DNA of 64,000 nt from Polaribacter litorisediminis (lineage in GTDB: Bacteria; Bacteroidota; Bacteroidia; Flavobacteriales; Flavobacteriaceae), in contig NZ_CP082966.1 in assembly GCF_019968605.1 (NCBI RefSeq), positions 793,001 to 857,000 on the forward strand. Direction: 5' to 3'. A program made the position numbers and the translations under genes. Of the stretch, positions 2,115-35,468 are shown in pieces (position 1 is the first letter of the stretch; every line of letters starts with the position of its first letter). The notes below the pieces were generated by a model, which searched no databases, was not told the DNA's origin, and saw only the letters and a list, made by a program, of their open reading frames with translations.

Positions 2115-2810
2115 CTATAATAGTTCACTAACATTTCTTTTATAGGTTTGCCCTATAGGGATTTTATGATCTTCTATTATAATTCGATTTCCTTCAATAA
2201 GTTTAATTTTATCAATACTAACGATAAACGATTTGTGAACCCGTAAAAATTGAGAAACTTCTAAAATTTCTTCATAATAAGATATTTTTTCATGACTGAT
2301 AATCATTTCTTCTTTTAAGAACAACTTCGTATAGTTTCCATAAGCTTCAATAAACAAAAGATCGGTTAAAGTAATTTGATGGTATTTTTTATCACCTTTT
2401 ACAAAAAAACGACTCTTATCATTTGTGTTAGCAACTTCTTTAATGATAGTTTTAGAACTGTCCATCTCTGAAACTTTATTGATGGCTTTTACCAAACGAT
2501 CAAAACTAAAAGGCTTTAAAAGATAATCTACAACATTCAATTCAAAACCTTCTAAGGCATATTCTTTATAAGCAGTAGTAACAATAGTTTTTGGTGGATT
2601 GGACATCGTTTTTAAAAAATCTAGTCCTTTTAATTTTGGCATATTGATATCTAAAAACATAAAATCAACAGTGTTTTTATTAAGATATTCCATGGCTTCC
2701 ATGGCATTGTAACAATGATGTTTTAACGCAATATGAGGAATCATACTACAAAATTCTTCTATAATCTCATGCGCTAAAGGCTCGTCATCAATAATAATAA
2801 AATTAAGCAT
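2115..2810 (-). CDS. LytTR-family response regulator (module 1)
   Basis: 231 residues. Residues 1-120 form a CheY-like receiver with the acidic pair after IIDDE and the phospho-acceptor Asp in FMFLDINMP; residues about 130-231 form a LytTR DNA-binding domain (FIEAYGNYTK, HKSFIVS, IPIGQTYK). The gene overlaps the upstream kinase gene by 8 bp, so the pair is an operon. Paralogous to the regulator at 29581-30282. It probably binds the three 21-bp-spaced sites at 3966-4016 just upstream of the operon and controls it and the divergent serine hydrolase; this target is inferred from position. Confidence 0.92.
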   Translation of the reverse strand: MLNFIIIDDEPLAHEIIEEFCSMIPHIALKHHCYNAMEAMEYLNKNTVDFMFLDINMPKLKGLDFLKTMSNPPKTIVTTAYKEYALEGFELNVVDYLLKPFSFDRLVKAINKVSEMDSSKTIIKEVANTNDKSRFFVKGDKKYHQITLTDLLFIEAYGNYTKLFLKEEMIISHEKISYYEEILEVSQFLRVHKSFIVSIDKIKLIEGNRIIIEDHKIPIGQTYKRNVSELL

Positions 2811-3924
2811 GTTTTAAAATTTTTAAAGTTGTTTTATACGTATTTATAGTTTTATCAATGACAAGAGTATGTTTTTTGGGATACAATAAGGATAATCTCT
2901 TTTTTAAATTTTGTAATCCTATCCCAGCAGAATTTGACACTTCTTTGGGATCAAAATTATTTTCAATTTCAAAATAAATAGATGCTTCCTCTTCTTTTAA
3001 ACTCATATGAATATATGCATTTTCTGTCAAGGTTTCTATGCCGTGTTTAAAAGTATTTTCTAATAAAATGATAAATAAAAGTGGAGCTATTTGTAAACTA
3101 GTATCTATATCTTTTTCAAATTGAATATCGACTGATTTTTTGTACCTTATCTTATGTAATTCGATATAGTTTTCTAAATATTGAATTTCATCTTTAAGTG
3201 TTACCCATTCTTTTTCTCCTTCATAAATGGTATAGCGCATCATATCCGATAGCTTTAAGATAACTTCTGGCGCTTTTTCAGATTGCTTTATGGTTAAAGC
3301 ATATAAATTATTCAACGTATTAAAGAAAAAATGAGGGTTAATTTGTGACCTCAGTAAAGACAATTCAGCCTGAGATTTTTCTGATTTTAAATTTTGAATC
3401 CATCTCCATTGTTCAAAAACCCAGACGATAATTAAAATAGGAATGGGTATAAAGAATATAATAATTGGAAAGTCTTCCTTAATGATTAAATAGGATTCTA
3501 CACCTCCTGAAAATAATCTTAAATAAATGAAATATACAAATAGTGGTATGTAAAAAAAGGCAATAAGCTTCCAATACTTTTTTATAAACTCTGGGAGTAA
3601 TAAATATGCAAACCCACACCAAAAAGTCATTAAAAGCATTATGGTAATTGGATTATCTGGTATACTCATTTTAGAATCAATGAATAAGATGACAAAAAAC
3701 ATTATGAATAAGCATAAAACTTTAATTGTCGCTTTTCTTTTTTTATTGAAAAAATATATTGATAAAGAAATGATAAACCCCCAAAAAAGAGCGAAAAAAA
3801 GGGTTTCATTCGTTTTTTGTGCTGAAAGAATAATGAACCCCAGATAATCTAATAGATAGAATATTGGCACCACAATGCTAAACCCAATTAGAAATGCTTT
3901 GTATTTTTTTAAAAACTGATTCAT
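2803..3924 (-). CDS. LytS-like sensor histidine kinase (module 1)
   Basis: 373 residues. The first ~160 residues contain five or six hydrophobic membrane segments and no evident extracellular sensor domain, followed by a His_kinase (PF06580) domain with the H-box SQINPHFFFNTLNNLY near residue 190 and an ATP-binding domain with LLENTFKHG and GIGLQNLKKRL. Members of this family phosphorylate LytTR regulators such as the one encoded directly downstream. The short extracytoplasmic loops fit intramembrane sensing, often of membrane or peptide stress and often linked to an ABC transporter; the signal itself is not visible. Confidence 0.9.
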   Translation of the reverse strand: MNQFLKKYKAFLIGFSIVVPIFYLLDYLGFIILSAQKTNETLFFALFWGFIISLSIYFFNKKRKATIKVLCLFIMFFVILFIDSKMSIPDNPITIMLLMTFWCGFAYLLLPEFIKKYWKLIAFFYIPLFVYFIYLRLFSGGVESYLIIKEDFPIIIFFIPIPILIIVWVFEQWRWIQNLKSEKSQAELSLLRSQINPHFFFNTLNNLYALTIKQSEKAPEVILKLSDMMRYTIYEGEKEWVTLKDEIQYLENYIELHKIRYKKSVDIQFEKDIDTSLQIAPLLFIILLENTFKHGIETLTENAYIHMSLKEEEASIYFEIENNFDPKEVSNSAGIGLQNLKKRLSLLYPKKHTLVIDKTINTYKTTLKILKHA

Positions 3925-3965
3925 AGTCCAAAATTACCATTGTTCAATCGTTTTTGCAACATTAT

Positions 3966-4016
3966 TGATAGACACTATTATTTTAATGATGAACAAGACT
4001 TTTTTATTGATAAACA
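3966..4016. promoter_or_regulatory. Three 21-bp-spaced TGATRRACA sites (module 1 control region)
   Basis: TGATAGACA at 3966, TGATGAACA at 3987 and TGATAAACA at 4008 lie exactly 21 bp apart, on one DNA face. The same triple with the same period lies at 31112-31162 in module 3. In both places the first site starts 42 bp from the kinase start and the last site starts 83+ bp before a TAnnTTTG element facing the other way. LytTR regulators bind direct repeats about two helical turns apart, so these are candidate regulator sites. Confidence 0.7.
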
Positions 4017-4098
4017 CAATTGAGCTTGTTTTTTTATAGATATAACTTTATAAAAATAGCGTATATCATATAAATTTTATGGTTTTTTTCTTCCGTTT

Positions 4099-4106
4099 TA
4101 TGTTTG
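4099..4106 (+). promoter_or_regulatory. -7 element (TATGTTTG) for the serine hydrolase gene
   Basis: TATGTTTG matches the Bacteroidota housekeeping -7 consensus TAnnTTTG and lies 28 bp before the ATG at 4134. No good TTG -33 box sits 19 bp upstream, which fits a promoter that needs an activator bound at 3966-4016. It overlaps an in-frame TTG at 4104, arguing against that codon as start. Confidence 0.55.
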
Positions 4107-4133
4107 CCTTATGTTAATCATAAATCAATAAAA

Positions 4134-5810
4134 ATGAAAAAAATAATAGCAACACTACTAATTACATTAAGCATTTTCTCAATGAATGCTCAAGAGTCAA
4201 TTCCGCAACAAACAAAAATTGATAAGATCTTCTCAAGATGGAATGCTCCAAATTCTCCAGGTGGAACTGTAGGAATCATAAAAGATGGAAAATTGATTTT
4301 TACCAAAGGCTACGGAATGGCCAACTTAGATTATAATATCCCAAATGATCCTAAAACTGTTTTTAGTATCGCTTCAACTTCAAAACAATTTACAGCGGCA
4401 TCTATCATTTTTTTATCAGAACAAGGTAAGTTATCATTGGAAGATACATTGATGAAATTTTTTCCAAATTTTCCAGATTATGCCAACGAAGTTACCGTTC
4501 AACACTTATTAAACCATACGAGCGGAATAAGAGATTATATTATCTTGGCAAGACTTTCTGGTTTAACAGTGGATGATTATTATACGAATGAAATCGTAGA
4601 GAAATTATTAACAAATCAACAAGAATTAAACTTTACTCCTGGCGATGAATATTTGTATAGTAATTCTGGATATTGGCTACTTGGCCAAATTGTTGAAAAA
4701 GTAAGCGGGTTTACATTGGCGGAATTTGCAAAGAAAAATATTTTTGATCCTTTAGAAATGAAGGATACTCATTTTCATGATAATCAGAATCAAATTGTTA
4801 AAAACAGAGCAACTGGATATAGACCTGATAGAAAAGGTGGATATTACATATACAATACAAAACTAAATATGATTGGTGATGGAGGTGTAATTACCAATGT
4901 AAATGATCTTGCCAAATGGGATGCTACATTCTATCATTCGAATTTATTCAATAAAGGTTTTTGGGATAAAATGACAGAAAATGGAATCTTGAATGATGGC
5001 AGTAAGATTAATTACGCAAAAGGCTTAAATATAAATACTTACAAAGGACTTAAAACGATTACTCATAGTGGTGGGTATGTTGGGTACAGAACTGAATTTA
5101 TACGATTTCCTGAAGCACAATTTTCAGTAATAATTTTAGCAAATAGAACAGACACTAACCCTACAAGAATGGTCTATATGATTGCTGATCTTTTTCTTGA
5201 AGATGAATACAAGAAAGAAAATAGCACTCAAACAAAAAAATCTTCTCCCGAAATAAAAGATTTTAAATCCATTACATTAACAAAAAAAGAACTGAATGCC
5301 TTTGAAGGATTTTATTGGGATGGTAAGAGTAAAATGAGTCGTGAGCTTAAAGTCCGAAACGATACTCTAAATTATGTAAGAAATGATGGAAGTGCTACTA
5401 TGATGGTACCAATTTCCAAAAACAAGTTTAAATTGATTGGACCTCGCGTTCCCGTTATTTGTGAAATGAGTTCCAATGGAAACACCAAAGAATTTACACT
5501 AAACCTACCCAATGCAGCACCAATAACTTATGTTGCCTATAAACCAATAACTGCATTTAGCGAAACCGACTTAGAAAGTTATTCTGGCGATTACTATAGC
5601 AAAGAATTAGATGCTGTGTACACCCTTAAAACTAAAAAAGATCGTATGCTTCTTATTGTGAAAGGCAATCCAATTGGTGAAGTGAAACCAATAATGAAAG
5701 ATGTAATTAATATTAGATCTAGACAAACATTCGAATTTAATAAAGAGAGAACAGCATTTAGGTTATCAATGTTAGGCAGAGTTAAGAATATAAAGTTTGT
5801 GAAAAGATAA
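4134..5810 (+). CDS. Secreted serine hydrolase, class C beta-lactamase/PBP fold, with C-terminal domain
   Basis: 558 residues from the ATG at 4134; an in-frame TTG at 4104 is rejected because it lies inside a promoter element and would precede the signal peptide (MKKIIATLLI...SMNAQ). Residues ~25-360 are a beta-lactamase-like (PF00144) domain: nucleophile motif S81-T-S-K84, YSN at the second motif (YSNSGY) and HSGG as third motif. A ~180-residue C-terminal extension resembles the lipocalin-like tail of many such esterases/peptidases. Periplasmic or outer; the substrate may be a D-amino-acid peptide or ester. Divergent from the LytTR/LytS operon and probably under its control. Confidence 0.88.
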   Translation: MKKIIATLLITLSIFSMNAQESIPQQTKIDKIFSRWNAPNSPGGTVGIIKDGKLIFTKGYGMANLDYNIPNDPKTVFSIASTSKQFTAASIIFLSEQGKLSLEDTLMKFFPNFPDYANEVTVQHLLNHTSGIRDYIILARLSGLTVDDYYTNEIVEKLLTNQQELNFTPGDEYLYSNSGYWLLGQIVEKVSGFTLAEFAKKNIFDPLEMKDTHFHDNQNQIVKNRATGYRPDRKGGYYIYNTKLNMIGDGGVITNVNDLAKWDATFYHSNLFNKGFWDKMTENGILNDGSKINYAKGLNINTYKGLKTITHSGGYVGYRTEFIRFPEAQFSVIILANRTDTNPTRMVYMIADLFLEDEYKKENSTQTKKSSPEIKDFKSITLTKKELNAFEGFYWDGKSKMSRELKVRNDTLNYVRNDGSATMMVPISKNKFKLIGPRVPVICEMSSNGNTKEFTLNLPNAAPITYVAYKPITAFSETDLESYSGDYYSKELDAVYTLKTKKDRMLLIVKGNPIGEVKPIMKDVINIRSRQTFEFNKERTAFRLSMLGRVKNIKFVKR

Positions 5811-25133: not shown

Positions 25134-25945
25134 TTAGGCAGTACTGAAACATGGGTTTCATCATATACTAATCCTGATTTTACGATAGCAAAACTCTGTT
25201 TTAACAACTTATAAGATACAGCTATTAATGCCAATTTCTTGCTCTTGGCTTTGTTTACAATACGTAGATAAAGTTCTCTGCAGCCTTTTTTATGCTTACA
25301 TGCTGTAAATGAACATAGAAATAATAGGTTTCTTAACTTTCTATTGCCAACTTTACTAATTCTTGCTCTTCTCCTTACACTACTTCCAGATTCTCCTATA
25401 GTTGGTGTGATTCCTACATAAATACAAAGTTGTGAGGCTGTCTCAAACTTTTAAAAACCAACTTTAACTACAATTAAAAATAACGCCGTGTTTACACCTA
25501 TACCTGAGATACTTGCTAAAAGTGTTAATTGAGCTTGTTGTACTTGCTTTACCAAAGTAAGTAACTTCTCTTCTATCCCCTTTATCTAAGAACCTTTTTG
25601 TCCTTTTCAGAAAACGGTAAACATATTTTGATGGAATACCTAAGACATCCTCACCGTGAATTTTATTCTTGGTAGCTGTTCGCTTTTTTATCAAACTATC
25701 TAACCATCTAAAGAGTTGTAGACATCCACTTTGAACTTCTGTAAGCGCATTGTATAAGGGAACTTCGTTGATCATCCCATAGTTAGAAATTGCTTTTGCA
25801 TCACTTTGATCCGTTTTTACTTTAGCTAATTTCATTTGTATAAAACGCTTTATTGATAATGGATTGGCAGCAGAAACTAAAATACTTTGTTTATGTAAGA
25901 ACTGAACTAATCTGTAATGATAGTAACCTGTTGCTTCCTTAATTA
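25134..25945 (-). pseudogene. IS110-family transposase, truncated and frameshifted
   Basis: Reading leftward: LQVIKEATGYYHYRL...VKTDQSDAKAI (the DEDD domain, lacking the first ~45 residues with the first Asp), a middle open segment to 25464, then after a frame change YVGITPTIGESGSSV...ISKVGNRKLRNLLFL (Transposase_20 domain) to a TAA at 25134. The N-terminal break joins directly to the GPP34 3' fragment. It cannot be active. Confidence 0.8.
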
Positions 25946-26169: not shown

Positions 26170-26664
26170 TTAATTCAAAATTTTAAGAAGATTGGCTTTG
26201 TATAATTTACCAATTGGGATTATATGATCTTGAATATGTATTCGATTTCCATCAATTTTATTGATATATTGTGTAGCAACAGCAAATGATTTGTGTACTT
26301 TTATAAAATCATTTGTTGGTAATGATTCTAAAATATCAGATATTTTATCCCTAATCGTAATGGTTTCAGTTTTAGTGATGATTTTTGTATAATTTCCAGA
26401 AGCTTCTACAAACAAAATTGCATCGATTTCTAATTGAATATGAGATTTATTCTGACGAATAAAAATACGTTTTGGTAAAGTTTCACTTGCTTCAAGTATT
26501 GGTTTCTTTACCTTTTTATTTGAATCAACAACTTTATTAACGGCTTTTAAAAAGCGCTCAAAACGAAATGGTTCTAATAAATAATCGACAATATTTAATT
26601 CATAACCATCAATGACAAACTCACTATAAGCAGTAGTTACAATAACTTTTACAGGAAACAGTAG
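26170..26664 (-). pseudogene. 5'-truncated LytTR response regulator (module 2 relic)
   Basis: The frame is open from about 26684 to the stop at 26170 but has no start codon: it begins inside the receiver (FPVKVIVTTAYSEFVIDGYE) and continues through the linker and an intact LytTR domain (FVEASGNYTK, HKSFAVA, IPIGKLYKANLLK). The phospho-acceptor half and the partner kinase gene are missing. It is closest to the regulator at 29581. A residual DNA-binding domain could be made only if expressed from an internal start. Confidence 0.85.
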
Positions 26665-26764
26665 TATTTCTTTACCTATATGGAACTCTCTTTAAAAACT
26701 ATAAAAACTCTACTTACTCATTAAAATAAAGTCCACATGTACTATTATTTCAGGTAATTACCAC

Positions 26765-26786
26765 AGATGTCATAAAGATGTCATAA
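26765..26786 (+). repeat. Tandem 11-bp direct repeat upstream of a serine hydrolase gene
   Basis: AGATGTCATAA occurs twice back to back (26765-26775 and 26776-26786), one helical turn apart, 32 bp before the -7 element. It could be a regulator site; it does not match the TGATRAACA sites of modules 1 and 3. Confidence 0.5.
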
Positions 26787-26817
26787 GTTTGGCGCTAGTG
26801 TCTATGGGTATTGTATT

Positions 26818-26825
26818 TAATTTTG
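26818..26825 (+). promoter_or_regulatory. -7 element (TAATTTTG) of the serine hydrolase operon
   Basis: TAATTTTG fits TAnnTTTG and lies 26 bp before the ATG at 26851. The nearest upstream TTG (26789) is 26 bp away, longer than usual. Confidence 0.5.
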
Positions 26826-26850
26826 TAAACGAAATATTTAATACAAACAC

Positions 26851-28230
26851 ATGAACAATTATTTTACAAGTATCCTTTTCTTTTTTATTACATATATTGG
26901 GTTTAGCCAAAGCTATCAATCTAAAATTGATGCTGTAGTTTCATCAACTTACAGTTCTAAAGAACCAGGAATTTCAGTTTTAGTAGCCAAAGATAGAAAA
27001 GCCATTTATAGTAAAGCTTTTGGAAAATCTAATTTAGAATTAAACACTCCTTTAGAAACTAATAGTGTCTTTCAAATTGGCTCTATAACAAAACAATTTA
27101 CTGCGATTTCTATTTTAATGCTAGAAGAACAAGGTAAGTTAAGTGTTGAGGATAAAATTGGAAAATACATTCCTGAATATGCTGAAATTGGAAAAGACAT
27201 TACCATTCATCATCTATTAAACCATACTTCGGGAATAAAAAACAGAACACCTGTTGGTGACAAGGGTTTTATTTCTAAAACTAATATGTCACCTACAGAA
27301 CTTATTGCATATTTTAAAGATGAACCTTTAGAATTCAAACCAGGAGAGCGTTTTAAATACAGTAATGCAGGCTATATTTTACTAGGGCGAATTATTGAAA
27401 TCGTTTCTGGACAACCTTACAGTGATTTTATAGAACAAAATATTTTTGATAAAATAGGAATGAAGAATTCATCCTGTGGAGATATGAAACAAGTTATTCC
27501 CAACCTTACTAAGGGTTATATCATTGAACAAAATGATTTTGTAAAATCAGATTATATAAATTTGTCTTTAGCGTATTCCGCAGGAGCTATTTTATCTACC
27601 ACAGAGGACCTTTTAAAATGGCAAAATGCATTACTTTCAAACACACTTTTAAAAGCTTCTAGTATAAAACAAGCTATGACACCAACCTTATTAAACAGTG
27701 GAAAAAGAGTACCTTATGGATATGGTTTTCGATTTTCAAAACTGGGAAATTCTCCTGTAATTGCCCACACAGGAAGCACGAAGGGGTTTACCAGTATTGC
27801 GCTGTTTTTACCTAAAGAGAAACTGTATATAACTGCATTAACCAACTGTAATTGTAAGAATGTAAATAACGTGGCGAAACAAGTTGCTGAATTATTTGTA
27901 AATCTACCCGATAATAAAATAACAGAGGTTGAGAATAATCAACCTGAGAGAAAATCAATTGATGTACCTTCAGAAATATTAAGTGACTATACAGGTACTT
28001 ATGAGGTTAAACCAAATGTAAACCTTACTATAGGATTGGATAACACAAATCAATTATACTTATTAGCTCCAGGTCAAACCAAGAAGGTCGAATTATTTGC
28101 CGAAACTCAAAATCATTTTTTTGTAAAAATTGTAGATGCAGAAATCACTTTTAATACAAATGAAAAGGGGAAGGTTATTAGTTTAACTATGAATCAATCT
28201 GGTCGTAAAATCACTGCTAAAAAGAATTAA
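26851..28230 (+). CDS. Secreted serine hydrolase (beta-lactamase/PBP class C fold)
   Basis: 459 residues, signal peptide ending near GFSQ. PF00144 domain with S78-I-T-K81, YSN (YSNAGY) and HTG (HTGSTKG) as the three catalytic motifs; a C-terminal ~90-residue beta-rich domain follows. Paralogue of 4134-5810 and of four others in the window. First gene of a three-gene operon (2-bp gaps) with a membrane protein and an XRE-type regulator. Likely periplasmic; substrate unknown. Confidence 0.9.
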   Translation: MNNYFTSILFFFITYIGFSQSYQSKIDAVVSSTYSSKEPGISVLVAKDRKAIYSKAFGKSNLELNTPLETNSVFQIGSITKQFTAISILMLEEQGKLSVEDKIGKYIPEYAEIGKDITIHHLLNHTSGIKNRTPVGDKGFISKTNMSPTELIAYFKDEPLEFKPGERFKYSNAGYILLGRIIEIVSGQPYSDFIEQNIFDKIGMKNSSCGDMKQVIPNLTKGYIIEQNDFVKSDYINLSLAYSAGAILSTTEDLLKWQNALLSNTLLKASSIKQAMTPTLLNSGKRVPYGYGFRFSKLGNSPVIAHTGSTKGFTSIALFLPKEKLYITALTNCNCKNVNNVAKQVAELFVNLPDNKITEVENNQPERKSIDVPSEILSDYTGTYEVKPNVNLTIGLDNTNQLYLLAPGQTKKVELFAETQNHFFVKIVDAEITFNTNEKGKVISLTMNQSGRKITAKKN

Positions 28231-29580: not shown

Positions 29581-30282
29581 TTATTTAAAAAGTTGATTAA
29601 TATTTGTTTTATATAGCTTACCAATAGGTACAATGTGATCGCCAATAAAAATTCTATTACCTTCTACCCTAGCGATGTGCTTTTTTGCAACGGCAAATGA
29701 CTTATGAACTTGAAGAAAATCATTATCAGAAAGCAATTGGATGGTATCCGATATTTTTTCACGAATACTAATTGTATTATTTTTAGTAACAAATTTGGTA
29801 TAATTGCCTGAAGCTTCAATAAATAGAATATCGTCTACATCTACCTGAATATGACTACTATTTTGTTTTAAAAAGATATGTTGTCCTTTAGGCTTTACAA
29901 CCTCTTTACTTTCTTTTCTTATTTTATTAGTGTCAGAAGATGTTACTTTATTAACAGCACTCAAAAATCGCTCAAAACGAAATGGTTTTAATAAATAATC
30001 TACAATGTTTAACTCATAACCATCAATGGCAAACTCACTATAAGCAGTAGTTACAATAACTTTTGGAGGATTTGTCAATGTCTTTAAAAAATCAAAACCT
30101 TTTAGTTTAGGCATATTTAAATCTAAAAAGATCAAATCAACTTGATGCGTGTTCAAATATTCCAAAGCTTCTAAAGCACTATAACAGTTTTTCTGCAATT
30201 GCATATGAGGAAGCATTTCACAATATTCCATAATAATTTTATGGGCAATATGTTCATCATCAATAATTAAATATTTCATCAT
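29581..30282 (-). CDS. LytTR-family response regulator (module 3)
   Basis: 233 residues: receiver with IIDDE and phospho-acceptor in IFLDLNMPKLKGFDFL, then LytTR domain (FIEASGNYTKFV, VHKSFAVAKKHI, VPIGKLYKTNINQL). Overlaps the kinase gene by 4 bp (ATGA). Strong similarity to the module 1 regulator and to the relic at 26170. The divergent target is the ABC exporter at 31273; the shared 21-bp-spaced sites at 31112-31162 are the proposed binding sites. Confidence 0.93.
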   Translation of the reverse strand: MMKYLIIDDEHIAHKIIMEYCEMLPHMQLQKNCYSALEALEYLNTHQVDLIFLDLNMPKLKGFDFLKTLTNPPKVIVTTAYSEFAIDGYELNIVDYLLKPFRFERFLSAVNKVTSSDTNKIRKESKEVVKPKGQHIFLKQNSSHIQVDVDDILFIEASGNYTKFVTKNNTISIREKISDTIQLLSDNDFLQVHKSFAVAKKHIARVEGNRIFIGDHIVPIGKLYKTNINQLFK

Positions 30283-31070
30283 TTCAAGGTTAAAGATAGT
30301 GTAACTTTATAAATAGTATTGTTAATGTCAAAAGAAAGTGAATGCCTTTTTGGGTAAACTAATTCTAATCTTCGTTTTAGATTTTTTAAACCAATGCCTT
30401 CTTGATTCTTTGTTTGTTGCAAATCAAAATTATTTTCAATGACTAATTGAACTTCATTATTGCTCTCTGTAAAATCAATATAAATGAATGCATCTTTTTC
30501 CAAATTTTCCAAACCGTGTTTAAATGCGTTTTCTAGTAGAATGATAAAAAGTAATGGCATCACTTTAGCATCAGGATTTTCGATAGTATGATTGAATTGT
30601 ACATCCGATTTTTTGTGATAACGAATTTCTTGAAGCTCTATATAATTTTGTAAATAATCCAATTCGTTTTTAAGGGTTACCCAATCTTTTTCGCCTTCAT
30701 AAATACTATAACGCATCATATCAGAAAGTTTAAGAACCATTTCTCTTTCTTTGGAATTCTTCTCCATCATTCCATATAAATTATTGAGCGTATTGAAGAA
30801 AAAGTGAGGATTTACCTGACTTTTTAAATGTAGTAGTTCTGTTTTTTCTTTTTCGTTCCTTAACTTAAATATGGATTTTATTTGTTTAAAAATCCAATAG
30901 GCAATCGTTATAAATACGATAATAAAGTAGAATGCAATAAATTCTGCAAATCCTTCTAATTTACCAAAGGTGTCATTAAATACAATAATAATGATACCTA
31001 TAATTACAAGCGTTAATTTAAATAATCGCTTCATAATTTTCTTTCTATTTTCTGATATTTTCATCTTCAT
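30279..31070 (-). CDS. LytS-like sensor histidine kinase (module 3)
   Basis: 263 residues, shorter than the module 1 kinase: only two membrane helices (about residues 15-30 and 40-62) before the His_kinase domain with KSQVNPHFFFNTLNNLYGM and LLENAFKHGLENL, GIGLKNLKRRL. The near absence of an external part points to sensing within the membrane or through another protein, plausibly the ABC transporter it is divergent from. Alternative start at 31064 is possible. Confidence 0.9.
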   Translation of the reverse strand: MKMKISENRKKIMKRLFKLTLVIIGIIIIVFNDTFGKLEGFAEFIAFYFIIVFITIAYWIFKQIKSIFKLRNEKEKTELLHLKSQVNPHFFFNTLNNLYGMMEKNSKEREMVLKLSDMMRYSIYEGEKDWVTLKNELDYLQNYIELQEIRYHKKSDVQFNHTIENPDAKVMPLLFIILLENAFKHGLENLEKDAFIYIDFTESNNEVQLVIENNFDLQQTKNQEGIGLKNLKRRLELVYPKRHSLSFDINNTIYKVTLSLTLK

Positions 31071-31111
31071 CCGTCAATATTACTTAAATAAAATTCCTCC
31101 AACAAATTAGT

Positions 31112-31162
31112 TGATAAACAATAGTTAAGTAGTGATAAATAGTTATTTAATAGTGATCAAGT
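31112..31162. promoter_or_regulatory. Three 21-bp-spaced TGATAAACA-like sites (module 3 control region)
   Basis: TGATAAACA at 31112, TGATAAATA at 31133 and TGATCAAGT at 31154: exactly 21 bp apart. First site 42 bp from the kinase start, last site start 91 bp and site end 83 bp from the opposing -7 element, identical to module 1. Candidate LytTR binding array for the divergent promoters. Confidence 0.7.
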
Positions 31163-31227
31163 TCGTTTATGTCCTTTAAAAGTGTTTGTGTCACGGCTAG
31201 TTTGGAGTGTATCCCAGATTCTTTTTC

Positions 31228-31252
31228 TTGCTAATAATAGTGGATAGGTTTG
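31228..31252 (+). promoter_or_regulatory. Promoter of the module 3 ABC exporter operon
   Basis: TAGGTTTG at 31245 fits TAnnTTTG; TTG at 31228 gives a 14-bp spacer, shorter than the usual ~19, again suggesting dependence on the upstream-bound regulator. The ATG follows 20-29 bp later. Confidence 0.55.
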
Positions 31253-31272: not shown

Positions 31273-32169
31273 ATGAATTATATGGAACTTGTTATTGACA
31301 ATCTATCAAAAACGTATGCTAATGGAGTTAAAGCACTTCAAAATATTTCTTTAGATATCCCTACTGGAATGTTTGGCTTATTAGGCCCAAATGGAGCAGG
31401 AAAATCTACATTAATGAGAACCATTGCAACTTTACAAGAAGCAGATCAAGGTTCCATAAAATTAGGTGATATAGATGTTCTACAACAAAAAAATGAGTTA
31501 AGACAAGTTTTAGGGTATTTGCCTCAACAATTTGGTTTGTATCCAAAAATATCTGCGGAAGTATTACTAAATCATTTTGCAGTATTAAAAGGTGTCATCA
31601 ATAAAAAGGAACGTCAAGAATTGGTAAAAGCACTTTTGCATAAAACCAATTTATATGATGTCAGAAAACAAAATTTAAAAGGATTTTCTGGTGGTATGAA
31701 ACAACGTTTTGGAATTGCTCAAGCTCTAGTAAACAACCCAAAACTATTAATTGTTGATGAGCCAACTGCAGGGTTAGATCCTGTAGAACGAAACCGCTTT
31801 TACAATTTATTAAGTGAGTTAGGGGAAAAAACAGTGGTTATTTTATCTACGCACATCGTAGATGATGTTAAGGAGTTGTGTACAAATATGGCAATTATTA
31901 ATAAAGGCCAAGTTTGTTTAAAAGGAAAGCCCCTAGAGATTTTAGAAAGTTTAAAGGGAAAAGTATATCAAAAAACAATCGAAAAATCAGAATTAAACCT
32001 ATACAAAGAAAACTTTCAGGTGATCAGTGAACGATTATTTCTAGGGAAACCTACCATTCATATTGTAAGTGAAACGAATCCTGGAGAGGGTTTTACAGCC
32101 ATTAATGCAGAATTAGAGGATGTATATTTCTCAGAAATTTTCAATGTTACGAACGCTAAATCTATATAA
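31273..32169 (+). CDS. ABC transporter ATP-binding protein (module 3)
   Basis: 298 residues (295 if the second ATG at 31282, which aligns with the paralogue's start, is used). Walker A GPNGAGKST, signature FSGGMKQR, Walker B LLIVDEPTAG; the C-terminal ~75 residues match those of the module 1 ATPase. It precedes the permease-peptidase gene by 2 bp. Divergent from the LytS/LytTR operon. Confidence 0.93.
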   Translation: MNYMELVIDNLSKTYANGVKALQNISLDIPTGMFGLLGPNGAGKSTLMRTIATLQEADQGSIKLGDIDVLQQKNELRQVLGYLPQQFGLYPKISAEVLLNHFAVLKGVINKKERQELVKALLHKTNLYDVRKQNLKGFSGGMKQRFGIAQALVNNPKLLIVDEPTAGLDPVERNRFYNLLSELGEKTVVILSTHIVDDVKELCTNMAIINKGQVCLKGKPLEILESLKGKVYQKTIEKSELNLYKENFQVISERLFLGKPTIHIVSETNPGEGFTAINAELEDVYFSEIFNVTNAKSI

Positions 32170-32171
32170 TT

Positions 32172-35100
32172 ATGTGGTATGAAATTTTTAAGTTCGAATT
32201 ACAATATCGAATTAAACGACCAGACACGTATGTATTCTTCTTATTTATATTTCTGTTTTCAATTATTGGTGTAGATTTTGTTTTTCAAGGTTCTGAAATG
32301 GGACTTTTGAAAAGAAATTCACCCATAGTAATAGCTAAAACCATGGGAGCTATCACCGGTTTATGTATGATTTTGGCTTCGATGATTATGGGTGTTTCTG
32401 TGTTGCGCGATTTTGAGTACGAGATAGAATCATTACTATTTTCAGCACCTATCAAAAAAAGAGATTATTTAATTGGTCGATTTTTAGGAGCATTTACTGT
32501 TTTACTGTTTGTATTTACAGGAATTATTTTGGGTATGATGTTGGGTGAATTTATGCCCTGGATTAGTCCAGATGAGCAATTGGCTTTTAATGCATTTGTT
32601 TACATAAAGACCTTTCTAATAGTAACGTTACCAACGTTGTTTTTTGGTGCAGCATTGTTTTTTGTAACAGGAGCTTTAACTAGAAATTTAATAGTTGTAT
32701 ATACTCAGGGTGTTATTTTGTTTGTAGTGTTTTTGTTAACCAAAGCAATTACTAATGATTTCTGGCAAGCTATTTTTGATCCATTTTCATTAACAACAAC
32801 AAGCTATATAACAAAATCTTGGTCAGCCTTAGAAAAGAGCACTCATGAACTTCCTTTTATTGGTGCATTGTTATATAATAAATTATTTTGGGTTGTTTTA
32901 GGAGTAATCGCATTAATTTATGGGTATAAAAAATTTAACCTTAATATAGTTAAAGAGAAGAAATCTAAAAGAAAGCAAGTTCAAAAGTTGGTAGCTAAAA
33001 GTACTAATTTAGTTGGTGATGTGGTGATTCCTAAAGCTAAAAAACAATATGGTTTACAATATAAATGGACACAATTAAAAGAGTTTTCATGGTTTTATTT
33101 TATTAGTATTTGTAAGCAGCCATCATTTTGGGGAATTGTTATTTGCGGAATGATTATTATTTTAGTCAATTCTGTAAATCTTGGAACTGTATATGGCGTT
33201 GATAGTTATCCTACAACCTACTTCATAGTTGAGGAACTTCAGGAAACGTCTTATTTTTTCTTTATCATCATCCTTGTTTTTTATTCAGGAGAATTGGTAT
33301 GGAAAGAAAGAGGTGCAAAGCTGAATTTAATTTATGATGCTACAGCCATGTCTAGTGTTGTAAGGTTAGCTGGAAAGTTTATTGGTTTAAACTTAATTTA
33401 TATAGTATTAATTGTTGCTCTAATTAGTTCTGGGATAGTATTCCAAACGATAAGTGGTTATTATAAGTATGAATTCCAAGTCTATTTTAATGGATTCTTT
33501 TTAGAAATTCTACCCGTATTATCCATTTTTACCTGCTTAGCATTTTTCATACAATCTTTAGTAAATAATAAGTTTGTAGGTATCATTTTGGTGATTGTAT
33601 TTAGTATTGTCAATGTGGCCATTGCTGTATTAGGATTTGATCATGATTTACACTTTTTTGGAGGAAGTTCCTTAGGCGCTTATTCAGATATGAATGGTTA
33701 TGGGCATTTTTTACAACCCTATTTAATCATCAAATTGTATTGGTTTCTTTTCGGAATTCTATTGTTAATTATAGGGTCTTTGATTTCTGTTAGAGGAAAT
33801 GAAACAAATTTAATAAAACGAATAAAAATTGCTAAGTATAAGTTTAGCAAACCGCTTTTAAAATTTACTGACATCATTCTTTTTACTTTTATTATTATTG
33901 GAGGATTTATATTTTACAATACGAATATTTTAAATGAATATTGGAGCAATTCTGAAGCTACTGAATTCAGAGTAGCCTATGAAAAAGAATTGAAGCAATT
34001 TGAATATATAACGCAACCAAAAATAGTAGATGTAAACTTACAATTAGAGCTGTATCCTTCTAAACGAGATTACAAAGTAGAAGGCTACTATATGTTAAAA
34101 AACACATCAATTGAAAACATAAAATCCATCCATATTCAAAAACTTTTGGAAGAAAATGTTAGGATAGACAGTATCGCTTTTGAAGGTGGTTTTACAACTA
34201 ATAATCAATACAAAAAGTTTGATTATTCAATTTTTAACCTGAAGAAAGCTTTACAACCTGGTGATTCTGTAAAAATGTACTTTAAGCAAAGTTTTACAAC
34301 CAAGGGCTTTGAGCAAGGAAATTCTAATAGTAACATTGTTTACAATGGTACATTTTTCAACAATGAACAGTTTCCAACATTAGGTTACAATAAAAAGTAT
34401 GAACTTCAAGATGAAGATGAACGAAGAGACCATAACTTATCAAAGAGGTCTAAAAAGGCGAATATAGATGATTCTAGAGAATTAGTGAATGCGAGATCTG
34501 GTGGTGATTCTGATGGGATTCAATTTGAAATGATTATTGGTACATCCAAAGAGCAAACAGCTTTGGTTCCTGGAGATTTATTGAGAAAATGGACAGCTAA
34601 TAATCGTAATTATTTTCATTATAAAACAAATGCACCAATTATTAATTTTTACGCCATAGTTTCTGCTGACTATGAAATTAAAAAAGACAAATGGATGACA
34701 AGCAATAAGGGGAATCCTGATCCTGTTGAACTTGAAATTTATTTTCAAAAAGGACATGAATATAACATCGATAGAATGATGAGGTCTATGAAAGCTTCAT
34801 TAGATTATTATAGTAACAACTTCAGTCGGTATCAATACCAACAACTGCGTATTATGGAGTTTCCACGTTATGCAACATTTGCACAATCTTTTCCTGGAAC
34901 GATTCCATTTTCAGAATCCATTGGATTTGTTTTAGATATTGATGACGAAAAAGATGTAGATATGGCTTTTTATGTGACTGCACATGAAGTAGCGCACCAA
35001 TGGTTTGCCATGCAAGTGGAAGCTGCGAATGTGCAAGGACAATTGATGGTATTAGAAACCTTATCACAATATGCAGCAATGATGGTTTTACAGCAACAGT

Positions 35101-35468
35101 ATTCCGAGGAAAAAGTGCAACAGTTTTTAGCGCTTCAAATGGATAAATATAAAGAAGGTGTACAAAAAGAAAGTAAAGAAGAACCCTCTCTTGCTCTAGT
35201 AGAAAATCAAGATTATGTCTATTATGCAAAAGGAGCAATCAATATGTACGAACTTCAAAAAAGGATAGGAGAGGAGAATGTCAATAAAGCACTTAAACGC
35301 TTTCTAGAAGATTGGAATACAACAAATGGAAAACTAAAATTGCAGACTGATCGATATGCAACAACTCAAGACTTACTTGGGTACTTCAGAGAGGTTACAC
35401 CAGTTTCTCAGCAGCATATAGTTACTGATTTATTTGAAAAAGTTACACCTATAGAACTGGATTTGTAA
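32172..35468 (+). CDS. ABC-2 permease fused to M1-family peptidase (module 3)
   Basis: 1098 residues. Two membrane blocks (about residues 15-260 and 310-570) of ABC-2 type, a linker, then a peptidase domain with HEVAH at residues 938-942 and Glu962 (LETLSQY): the same HExxH-x19-E spacing as in the module 1 paralogue. The M1 GxMEN position reads PGTIPFSES. Zinc ligands are intact, so catalysis is plausible. The fusion may trim peptides or proteins at the outer face of the inner membrane while the ABC part moves them. Substrate unknown. Confidence 0.88.
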   Translation: MWYEIFKFELQYRIKRPDTYVFFLFIFLFSIIGVDFVFQGSEMGLLKRNSPIVIAKTMGAITGLCMILASMIMGVSVLRDFEYEIESLLFSAPIKKRDYLIGRFLGAFTVLLFVFTGIILGMMLGEFMPWISPDEQLAFNAFVYIKTFLIVTLPTLFFGAALFFVTGALTRNLIVVYTQGVILFVVFLLTKAITNDFWQAIFDPFSLTTTSYITKSWSALEKSTHELPFIGALLYNKLFWVVLGVIALIYGYKKFNLNIVKEKKSKRKQVQKLVAKSTNLVGDVVIPKAKKQYGLQYKWTQLKEFSWFYFISICKQPSFWGIVICGMIIILVNSVNLGTVYGVDSYPTTYFIVEELQETSYFFFIIILVFYSGELVWKERGAKLNLIYDATAMSSVVRLAGKFIGLNLIYIVLIVALISSGIVFQTISGYYKYEFQVYFNGFFLEILPVLSIFTCLAFFIQSLVNNKFVGIILVIVFSIVNVAIAVLGFDHDLHFFGGSSLGAYSDMNGYGHFLQPYLIIKLYWFLFGILLLIIGSLISVRGNETNLIKRIKIAKYKFSKPLLKFTDIILFTFIIIGGFIFYNTNILNEYWSNSEATEFRVAYEKELKQFEYITQPKIVDVNLQLELYPSKRDYKVEGYYMLKNTSIENIKSIHIQKLLEENVRIDSIAFEGGFTTNNQYKKFDYSIFNLKKALQPGDSVKMYFKQSFTTKGFEQGNSNSNIVYNGTFFNNEQFPTLGYNKKYELQDEDERRDHNLSKRSKKANIDDSRELVNARSGGDSDGIQFEMIIGTSKEQTALVPGDLLRKWTANNRNYFHYKTNAPIINFYAIVSADYEIKKDKWMTSNKGNPDPVELEIYFQKGHEYNIDRMMRSMKASLDYYSNNFSRYQYQQLRIMEFPRYATFAQSFPGTIPFSESIGFVLDIDDEKDVDMAFYVTAHEVAHQWFAMQVEAANVQGQLMVLETLSQYAAMMVLQQQYSEEKVQQFLALQMDKYKEGVQKESKEEPSLALVENQDYVYYAKGAINMYELQKRIGEENVNKALKRFLEDWNTTNGKLKLQTDRYATTQDLLGYFREVTPVSQQHIVTDLFEKVTPIELDL

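Follow-up and report, generated by a model that had tools for sequence, protein, structure and literature searches.

LytTR regulators have been described as activators that act from 9-bp direct repeats, separated by 12 bp and placed just upstream of the -35 box, and LytTR activation is likewise described at the divergent agr P2 and P3 promoters. Repression has also been reported, as for AgrA at bsaA, where the site lies next to the promoter. In the agr system of S. aureus, a 214-bp probe described as running from P2 +11 to P3 +15 implies 188 bp between the two start sites. In the LytTR Regulatory Systems (LRS), for example HdrRM and BrsRM of Streptococcus mutans, 9-bp direct repeats with a mostly 12-bp spacer are reported, as in the DNA analysed here; those of S. 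mutans are placed 4-11 bp upstream of -35, and in the published descriptions repeat spacing is kept better than sequence and autoregulation is positive. LytTR regulators are numerous in the bacteria considered here. In the open-access literature we found no described binding site for a LytTR regulator of the Bacteroidota, and no description of the mirrored two-array layout presented below.

The window (the whole 64-kb stretch of DNA that was analysed) contains two paralogous modules, each made up of a minus-strand kinase-regulator operon and an unrelated plus-strand gene, here called the outward gene (Table 1). Both modules have the composition of a LytS/LytTR two-component system, in which a PF06580 kinase lies beside a receiver-LytTR regulator. 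For both regulators the best NCBIfam match was BtsR, at 115 and 101 bits and below the cut-off of 246; the complete 4.34-Mb genome gave 21 matches to the LytTR profile. As an earlier, sequence-only reading of this DNA had pointed out, the downstream genes differ: module 1 has a serine hydrolase, module 2 an ABC exporter, and the two are unrelated. The permease encoded at 32172-35468 carries an M1-peptidase-like domain at its C-terminus, an unusual fusion beside an ABC ATPase gene.

Table 1. Positions in the window of the genes and predicted control elements of the two modules.
Feature	Position	Strand	Details
Module 1 response regulator, receiver + LytTR	2115..2810	-	PF00072 1.4e-20; PF04397 9e-15
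Module 1 LytS-type histidine kinase	2803..3924	-	PF06580 2.2e-28
Module 1 kinase -7 element	3929..3936	-	TAATTTTG; 4 nt before ATG
Module 1 kinase promoter TTG, -33..-35	3957..3959	-	
Module 1 kinase-side array	3966..4016	+	boxes TGATAGACA 3966-3974, TGATGAACA 3987-3995, TGATAAACA 4008-4016
Module 1 dyad centre	4017..4017	.	1-bp spacer between arrays
Module 1 inverted outward-side array	4018..4068	-	positions 4018-4026, 4039-4047, 4060-4068
Module 1 outward -7 element	4099..4106	+	TATGTTTG; TTT, not TTG, at -35..-33
Outward gene 1, beta-lactamase-fold serine hydrolase	4134..5810	+	PF00144 2.7e-61; profile search ORF: 4131-5810
Module 2 response regulator	29581..30282	-	profile search; 52% identity to module 1 regulator
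Module 2 LytS-type histidine kinase	30279..31070	-	53% identity to module 1 kinase, 217 aligned residues
Module 2 kinase -7 element	31075..31082	-	TAATATTG; 5 of 6 letters; 4 nt before ATG
Module 2 kinase promoter TTG, -33..-35	31103..31105	-	
Module 2 kinase-side array	31112..31162	+	boxes TGATAAACA 31112-31120, TGATAAATA 31133-31141, TGATCAAGT 31154-31162
Module 2 dyad centre	31163..31163	.	
Module 2 inverted outward-side array	31164..31214	-	boxes 31164-31172, 31185-31193, 31206-31214
Module 2 outward -7 element	31245..31252	+	TAGGTTTG; TTT at -35..-33
Outward gene 2, ABC exporter ATPase	31273..32169	+	PF00005 1.7e-31
ABC-2-type permease, outward operon of module 2	32172..35468	+	PF12698 0.00084 (below its cut-off); PF01433 2.4e-12

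The sequence-only reading had proposed three TGATRRACA-type sites at 21-bp steps in the gap between kinase and outward gene of each module. Both triples were located, that at 31112-31162 being the weaker one. Taken in order along the window, the single-box p values were 0.0003, 0.0001 and 0.0001 in module 1 and 0.0001, 0.002 and 0.014 in module 2. With up to three mismatches allowed, a triple at 21-bp steps was found once in the window (module 1) and never in 100 shuffles; the module 2 triple is not among these matches because its third box is degenerate, which brings the triple to four mismatches. At no more than one mismatch, box pairs were found three times in the 4.34-Mb genome, only in modules 1 and 2, and at no more than two mismatches ten times, against three in the reversed control. 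Composed of 9-bp direct repeats with a 12-bp spacer upstream of a -35/-33 box, the arrays have the form of a LytTR operator and are regarded as putative operators. Measured from the kinase ATGs, which end at 3924 and 31070, the first box lies 42 bp away in both gaps, and TAnnTTTG elements were found at 4099 and 31245, 83 bp after the last box, both as the same reading had it.

Beyond the dyad, the second array is less distinct in module 1 than the kinase-side array. The positions of its boxes were taken from the mirror analysis of related loci, and with p values of 0.07, 0.19 and 0.005 only 4060-4068 is clear when taken alone; the outward boxes of module 2 gave 0.007, 0.017 and 0.005 in the order 31164, 31185 and 31206. 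The earlier statement that neither outward promoter has a normal -33 box is borne out, both reading TTT at -35..-33, and the outward start sites are predicted at about 4111 and 31257. Scored for the whole architecture, the two modules are the top two places in the window (55.8 and 55.4); the next independent place reached 31.5, and the best of five Markov-simulated windows 22-26. The kinase-side triple of the sequence-only reading exists, but the unit is not its three sites alone: it consists of two inverted arrays and two promoters. The 83 bp between the last box and the opposing TAnnTTTG is explained by the second array and its promoter spacing, which fill that distance.

Relatives of both regulators were sought in 149 genomes of the family, with at most 19 candidates per genome scored; for each regulator 34 of the 149 genomes matched at 1e-60. 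The first set of 58 loci (L051-L108) was brought down to 42 by removing 14 repeated loci and two without a regulator match. Start-codon choice in this set gave extra weight to the predicted layout, and in 36 of the 42 the chosen codon was the first ATG in any case. Offsets were counted outwards from the kinase start codon, with offset 0 at 3925 in module 1 and 31071 in module 2. A matrix was trained on the kinase-side boxes alone (offsets 41, 62 and 83) of the 29 loci that have an exact outward TAnnTTTG at 172-176. When this matrix was run over the opposite strand of the same 29 loci, offsets 135, 114 and 93 were the top three of 160. The mean score was 3.0, and none of 2000 rotated controls exceeded -3.9. 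Reflected about offset 92, the three positions fall on 41, 62 and 83, and the outward -7 element at 174 mirrors the kinase -7 element at 4-11 within 1 bp. In this opposite-strand register, sequence comparison shows two inverted LytTR arrays of three boxes each that meet at a dyad, and the gap is accordingly taken as a bidirectional promoter.

The same register was seen in a second set, for which 80 named loci in other genomes were the starting material. From these, 29 were dropped (no kinase frame, or no -7 element near an ATG), as were seven with more than 70% identity to the first set; the outward half had no part in the choice of the remaining 44. The direct boxes at 41, 62 and 83 were again the top three, and the inverted boxes ranked first (135), second (93) and fourth (114) of 158. 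The triple, whose absence from homologous loci the sequence-only reading had named as fatal to its proposal, thus recurs in them. In 29 of the 44 loci an outward -7 element with at least five of six letters stood at 174 or 175, and in 19 the match was exact. Both sets also show an unexplained inverted signal at offset 38, overlapping box 1 and the -33 region, which ranked third in the second set. TTG near -33 was present in 25/29 kinase promoters and 0/29 outward promoters of the first set, and in 23/44 and 6/44 of the second.

Pooled and made non-redundant, the sets comprised 83 loci, 72 with a good kinase-side array and 11 without. The best outward half lay at 173-175 in 67 of the 72 (two at 173, 44 at 174, 21 at 175) and away from the mirror position in the other five; among named loci only, the figure was 34/36. 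In the loci compared, the two predicted -7 elements lie at a distance that varies by only about 1 bp. Per-position conservation averaged 0.7-1.6 bits in the boxes and promoter elements versus 0.3 elsewhere, and many loci have degenerate boxes 2 and 3. Spacing changes in 21-bp steps are not claimed: only L099, with its outward -7 element at 153 (21 bp less), is suggestive, and L072 (152) and L128 (195) are poor matches. Among the named loci with the layout are records of Tenacibaculum, Polaribacter, Aquimarina, Chryseobacterium, Pedobacter, Roseivirga, Saprospiraceae, Chitinophagales and Balneolaceae.

In both modules the kinase strand has TAnnTTTG, or a five-of-six match to it, at offsets 4-11 and TTG at offsets 32-34, promoter elements that the sequence-only reading had passed over. 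In published flavobacterial start-site maps the -7 element is placed at -12 to -5, so that the A of the kinase ATG (3924, 31070) would itself be the predicted +1. Counted from there, box 1 spans -42 to -50, box 2 -63 to -71 and box 3 -84 to -92, and box 1 lies wholly upstream of -35, 6 bp from the TTG. The 42 bp is constant owing to the kinase -7 element, which stops some 4 nt short of the ATG. Under a first-ATG rule, the -7 element ended 3-5 nt before the kinase ATG, the position described for leaderless flavobacterial mRNAs, in 35 of 42 related loci; the same test at the regulator starts of those loci gave 1/56. The kinase mRNA is predicted to be leaderless, in a group in which such genes are a small minority: leaderless mRNAs are reported as 5.5% in F. 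psychrophilum, and 87% of the leaders in F. johnsoniae as longer than 10 nt. That 42 bp might be a fixed distance to the coding region was rejected on account of one shifted locus, L132, in which the boxes (63, 84, 105), the kinase -7 element (26) and the outward -7 element (196) are all displaced by 22 from the chosen start codon. This common shift indicates that spacing is kept between the promoters and not to the ATG. L132 itself, with an unchanged promoter-to-promoter layout and another 22 nt between the kinase -7 element and the chosen start codon, looks like a variant with a leader; L121 and L126 resemble it in their positions, but have one strong box each.

To search more widely, a 178-bp pattern of fixed spacing was used, which covers both -7 elements, box 1 and part of the proximal outward box. 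In 299 family genomes it found 28 sites with no mismatch, eight with one and 36 with two, against four in all at up to two mismatches in the reversed control; a mis-spaced control 5 bp too long (95 versus 90 unspecified bases) gave 17 sites, none of them perfect. Twenty of the 36 sites with at most one mismatch were examined, and all 20 adjoin a LytS kinase; this held for one of ten examined sites with two mismatches. Most of the 36 two-mismatch sites are repeats of a single conserved coding stretch and no promoter. A sample of 395 genomes of the phylum yielded eight sites in seven genomes at up to one mismatch (control, one). Four of the eight lie outside the family, each next to a LytS kinase-regulator pair whose outward gene encodes an ABC ATPase. 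Since the pattern needs exact spacing, it undercounts. A literal TGATRRACA pair was rejected as a regulon detector, with 79 sites against 53 in the reversed control in 199 family genomes; it stands little above background because only box 1 keeps the consensus, boxes 2 and 3 being degenerate.

Of 39 named loci with a strong kinase-side array, two had no outward ORF; the outward genes of the other 37 were tallied together with the two window genes. ABC ATPases (20), calcineurin-like phosphoesterases (11) and alpha/beta hydrolases (4) were the main classes, and beta-lactamase-fold hydrolases (2), an outer-membrane barrel (1) and a CAAX protease (1) were rarer. On this comparison the outward gene has evidently been swapped in evolution and the control region retained. 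The sequence-only reading held that the geometry is kept for regulation and not by block copying, and the many genera, the varied outward genes and the focusing of conservation on boxes and promoters all speak for that view.

LytTR repeats just upstream of -35 are known to activate, and the simplest reading is therefore a self-boosted kinase and a regulator-dependent outward promoter. We consider it likely that each gap is a mirror-symmetric bidirectional promoter run by the adjacent LytTR regulator, acting as a self-activating switch with an activator-dependent outward promoter; the switch probably has six sites. A stimulated kinase would lead to phosphorylated regulator filling the boxes, and the bound regulator would recruit RNA polymerase to both promoters. 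With its -33 box, the kinase-regulator operon would be expressed at a basal, leaky level and then boosted, which amounts to positive autoregulation, and the outward gene, lacking that box, would be largely silent before regulator binding. Such activation of the outward gene had been suggested before, and it fits the missing -33 box.

The near-fixed distance between the promoters raises the physical question of whether the two arrays are one complex. The six boxes may bind regulator as one cooperative complex, with the distal boxes head to head across the 1-bp dyad and both promoters forming a coupled unit, because the halves meet at that dyad at a nearly constant distance, neither of which independent halves would need; we put this forward tentatively, as the less probable arrangement. 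Bound regulator might instead lower the kinase promoter and limit the sensor operon, with the outward promoter activated or unaffected. The kinase promoter does look complete, with TTG and TAnnTTTG, and perhaps has no need of an activator, and the reported repression of bsaA by AgrA is from a promoter-adjacent site; however, box 1, upstream of -35 and 6 bp from the TTG, occupies the position reported for LytTR activation, and we think such negative autoregulation unlikely. A somewhat smaller chance still is given to the inference of the sequence-only reading that both modules belong to one shared or cross-talking regulon, here taken to include more targets. The proximal boxes are nearly identical in the two modules and the regulators 52% identical, but common descent of paralogous self-regulated modules explains this likeness, and the 20 examined family sites all lie at LytS kinases. 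The wider regulon finds no support in the 4.34-Mb genome either, where close box pairs are confined to both modules. Cross-talk between modules 1 and 2 themselves is possible, because their proximal boxes are near-identical.

It could be argued that the outward-side repeats are AT-rich chance matches and that the kinase-side array alone is genuine, and the weak outward boxes of module 1 lend themselves to this; yet the mirror register in two data sets, its presence in 67 of 72 loci and the rotated controls make it very improbable. Least probable of all is that the gaps are alike through recent block duplication in this genome. The kinases and regulators are indeed paralogues, but for either regulator more similar proteins exist elsewhere (up to 79% and 81% identity, versus 52% to each other), the loci of those proteins share the layout, and the outward genes are unrelated.

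Further LytTR genes lie in and near the window. A truncated regulator at 26170-26667, 63% identical to that of module 2 over residues 68-230, has neither a kinase nor an intact start and stands beside a beta-lactamase-fold serine hydrolase gene (26851-28230); at the promoter TAAGTTTG (26784) no boxes were found at the array positions. The 26170-28230 region looks like a decayed third module, next to an ORF (25464-25835) that we take, by its look, to be a transposase fragment. Around the 18 LytTR matches outside the window, 16 stretches were searched and gave one further candidate, L190. Just left of the window (L190:8757-12569, genome 788756-792568), it has a kinase-regulator pair divergent from a beta-lactamase-family gene, with an architecture score of 36 in both directions, a kinase -7 element 17 nt from the ATG and weak boxes. 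Two further kinase-LytTR pairs stand in tandem within 4 kb (L190:2029-5722), so that about 45 kb holds three LytTR pairs and the two modules.

A control region that is this rigid and recognisable, with built-in internal controls, would allow direct LytTR targets to be read from sequence, the gene across the dyad being the predicted direct target of the adjacent regulator. In protein architecture the modules equal the BtsS/BtsR and YpdA/YpdB systems described in gamma-proteobacteria, a likeness drawn on proteins only. They differ from the LRS, in which a LytTR regulator is paired with a membrane inhibitor and no kinase, since a receiver domain and a kinase were found in the modules; the LRS also have two repeats and one promoter, and the modules three repeats per array and two promoters. 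The S. aureus agr P2-P3 region, as published, is the nearest layout, and the module gaps are predicted to work like it. In both, divergent promoters serve a kinase-regulator operon and an effector, and LytTR direct repeats stand immediately upstream of each promoter, two of the three outward boxes being weak in module 1. The proximal agr repeats are described as centred near -60, and boxes 1-2 here centre at about -57. The agr region has two repeats per promoter and SarA sites in between, where three repeats and two more boxes, respectively, are found here; it has -35/-10 promoters and RNAIII as effector, whereas the modules have one of several protein genes in that role. Going by the published description of agr, the predicted leaderless kinase mRNA is a further difference. 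The modules are not members of the agr system, because their operon, which among ORFs of at least 100 aa starts with a kinase gene overlapping the regulator gene, is not arranged as agrBDCA, and because a protein gene stands in place of the effector RNA. The start sites are nevertheless separated by an implied 188 bp in agr, from the probe as described, and by a predicted 186 bp or so here, and if the six boxes did form one coupled complex, these two figures would point to a general LytTR divergon design across phyla and sigma-factor types.
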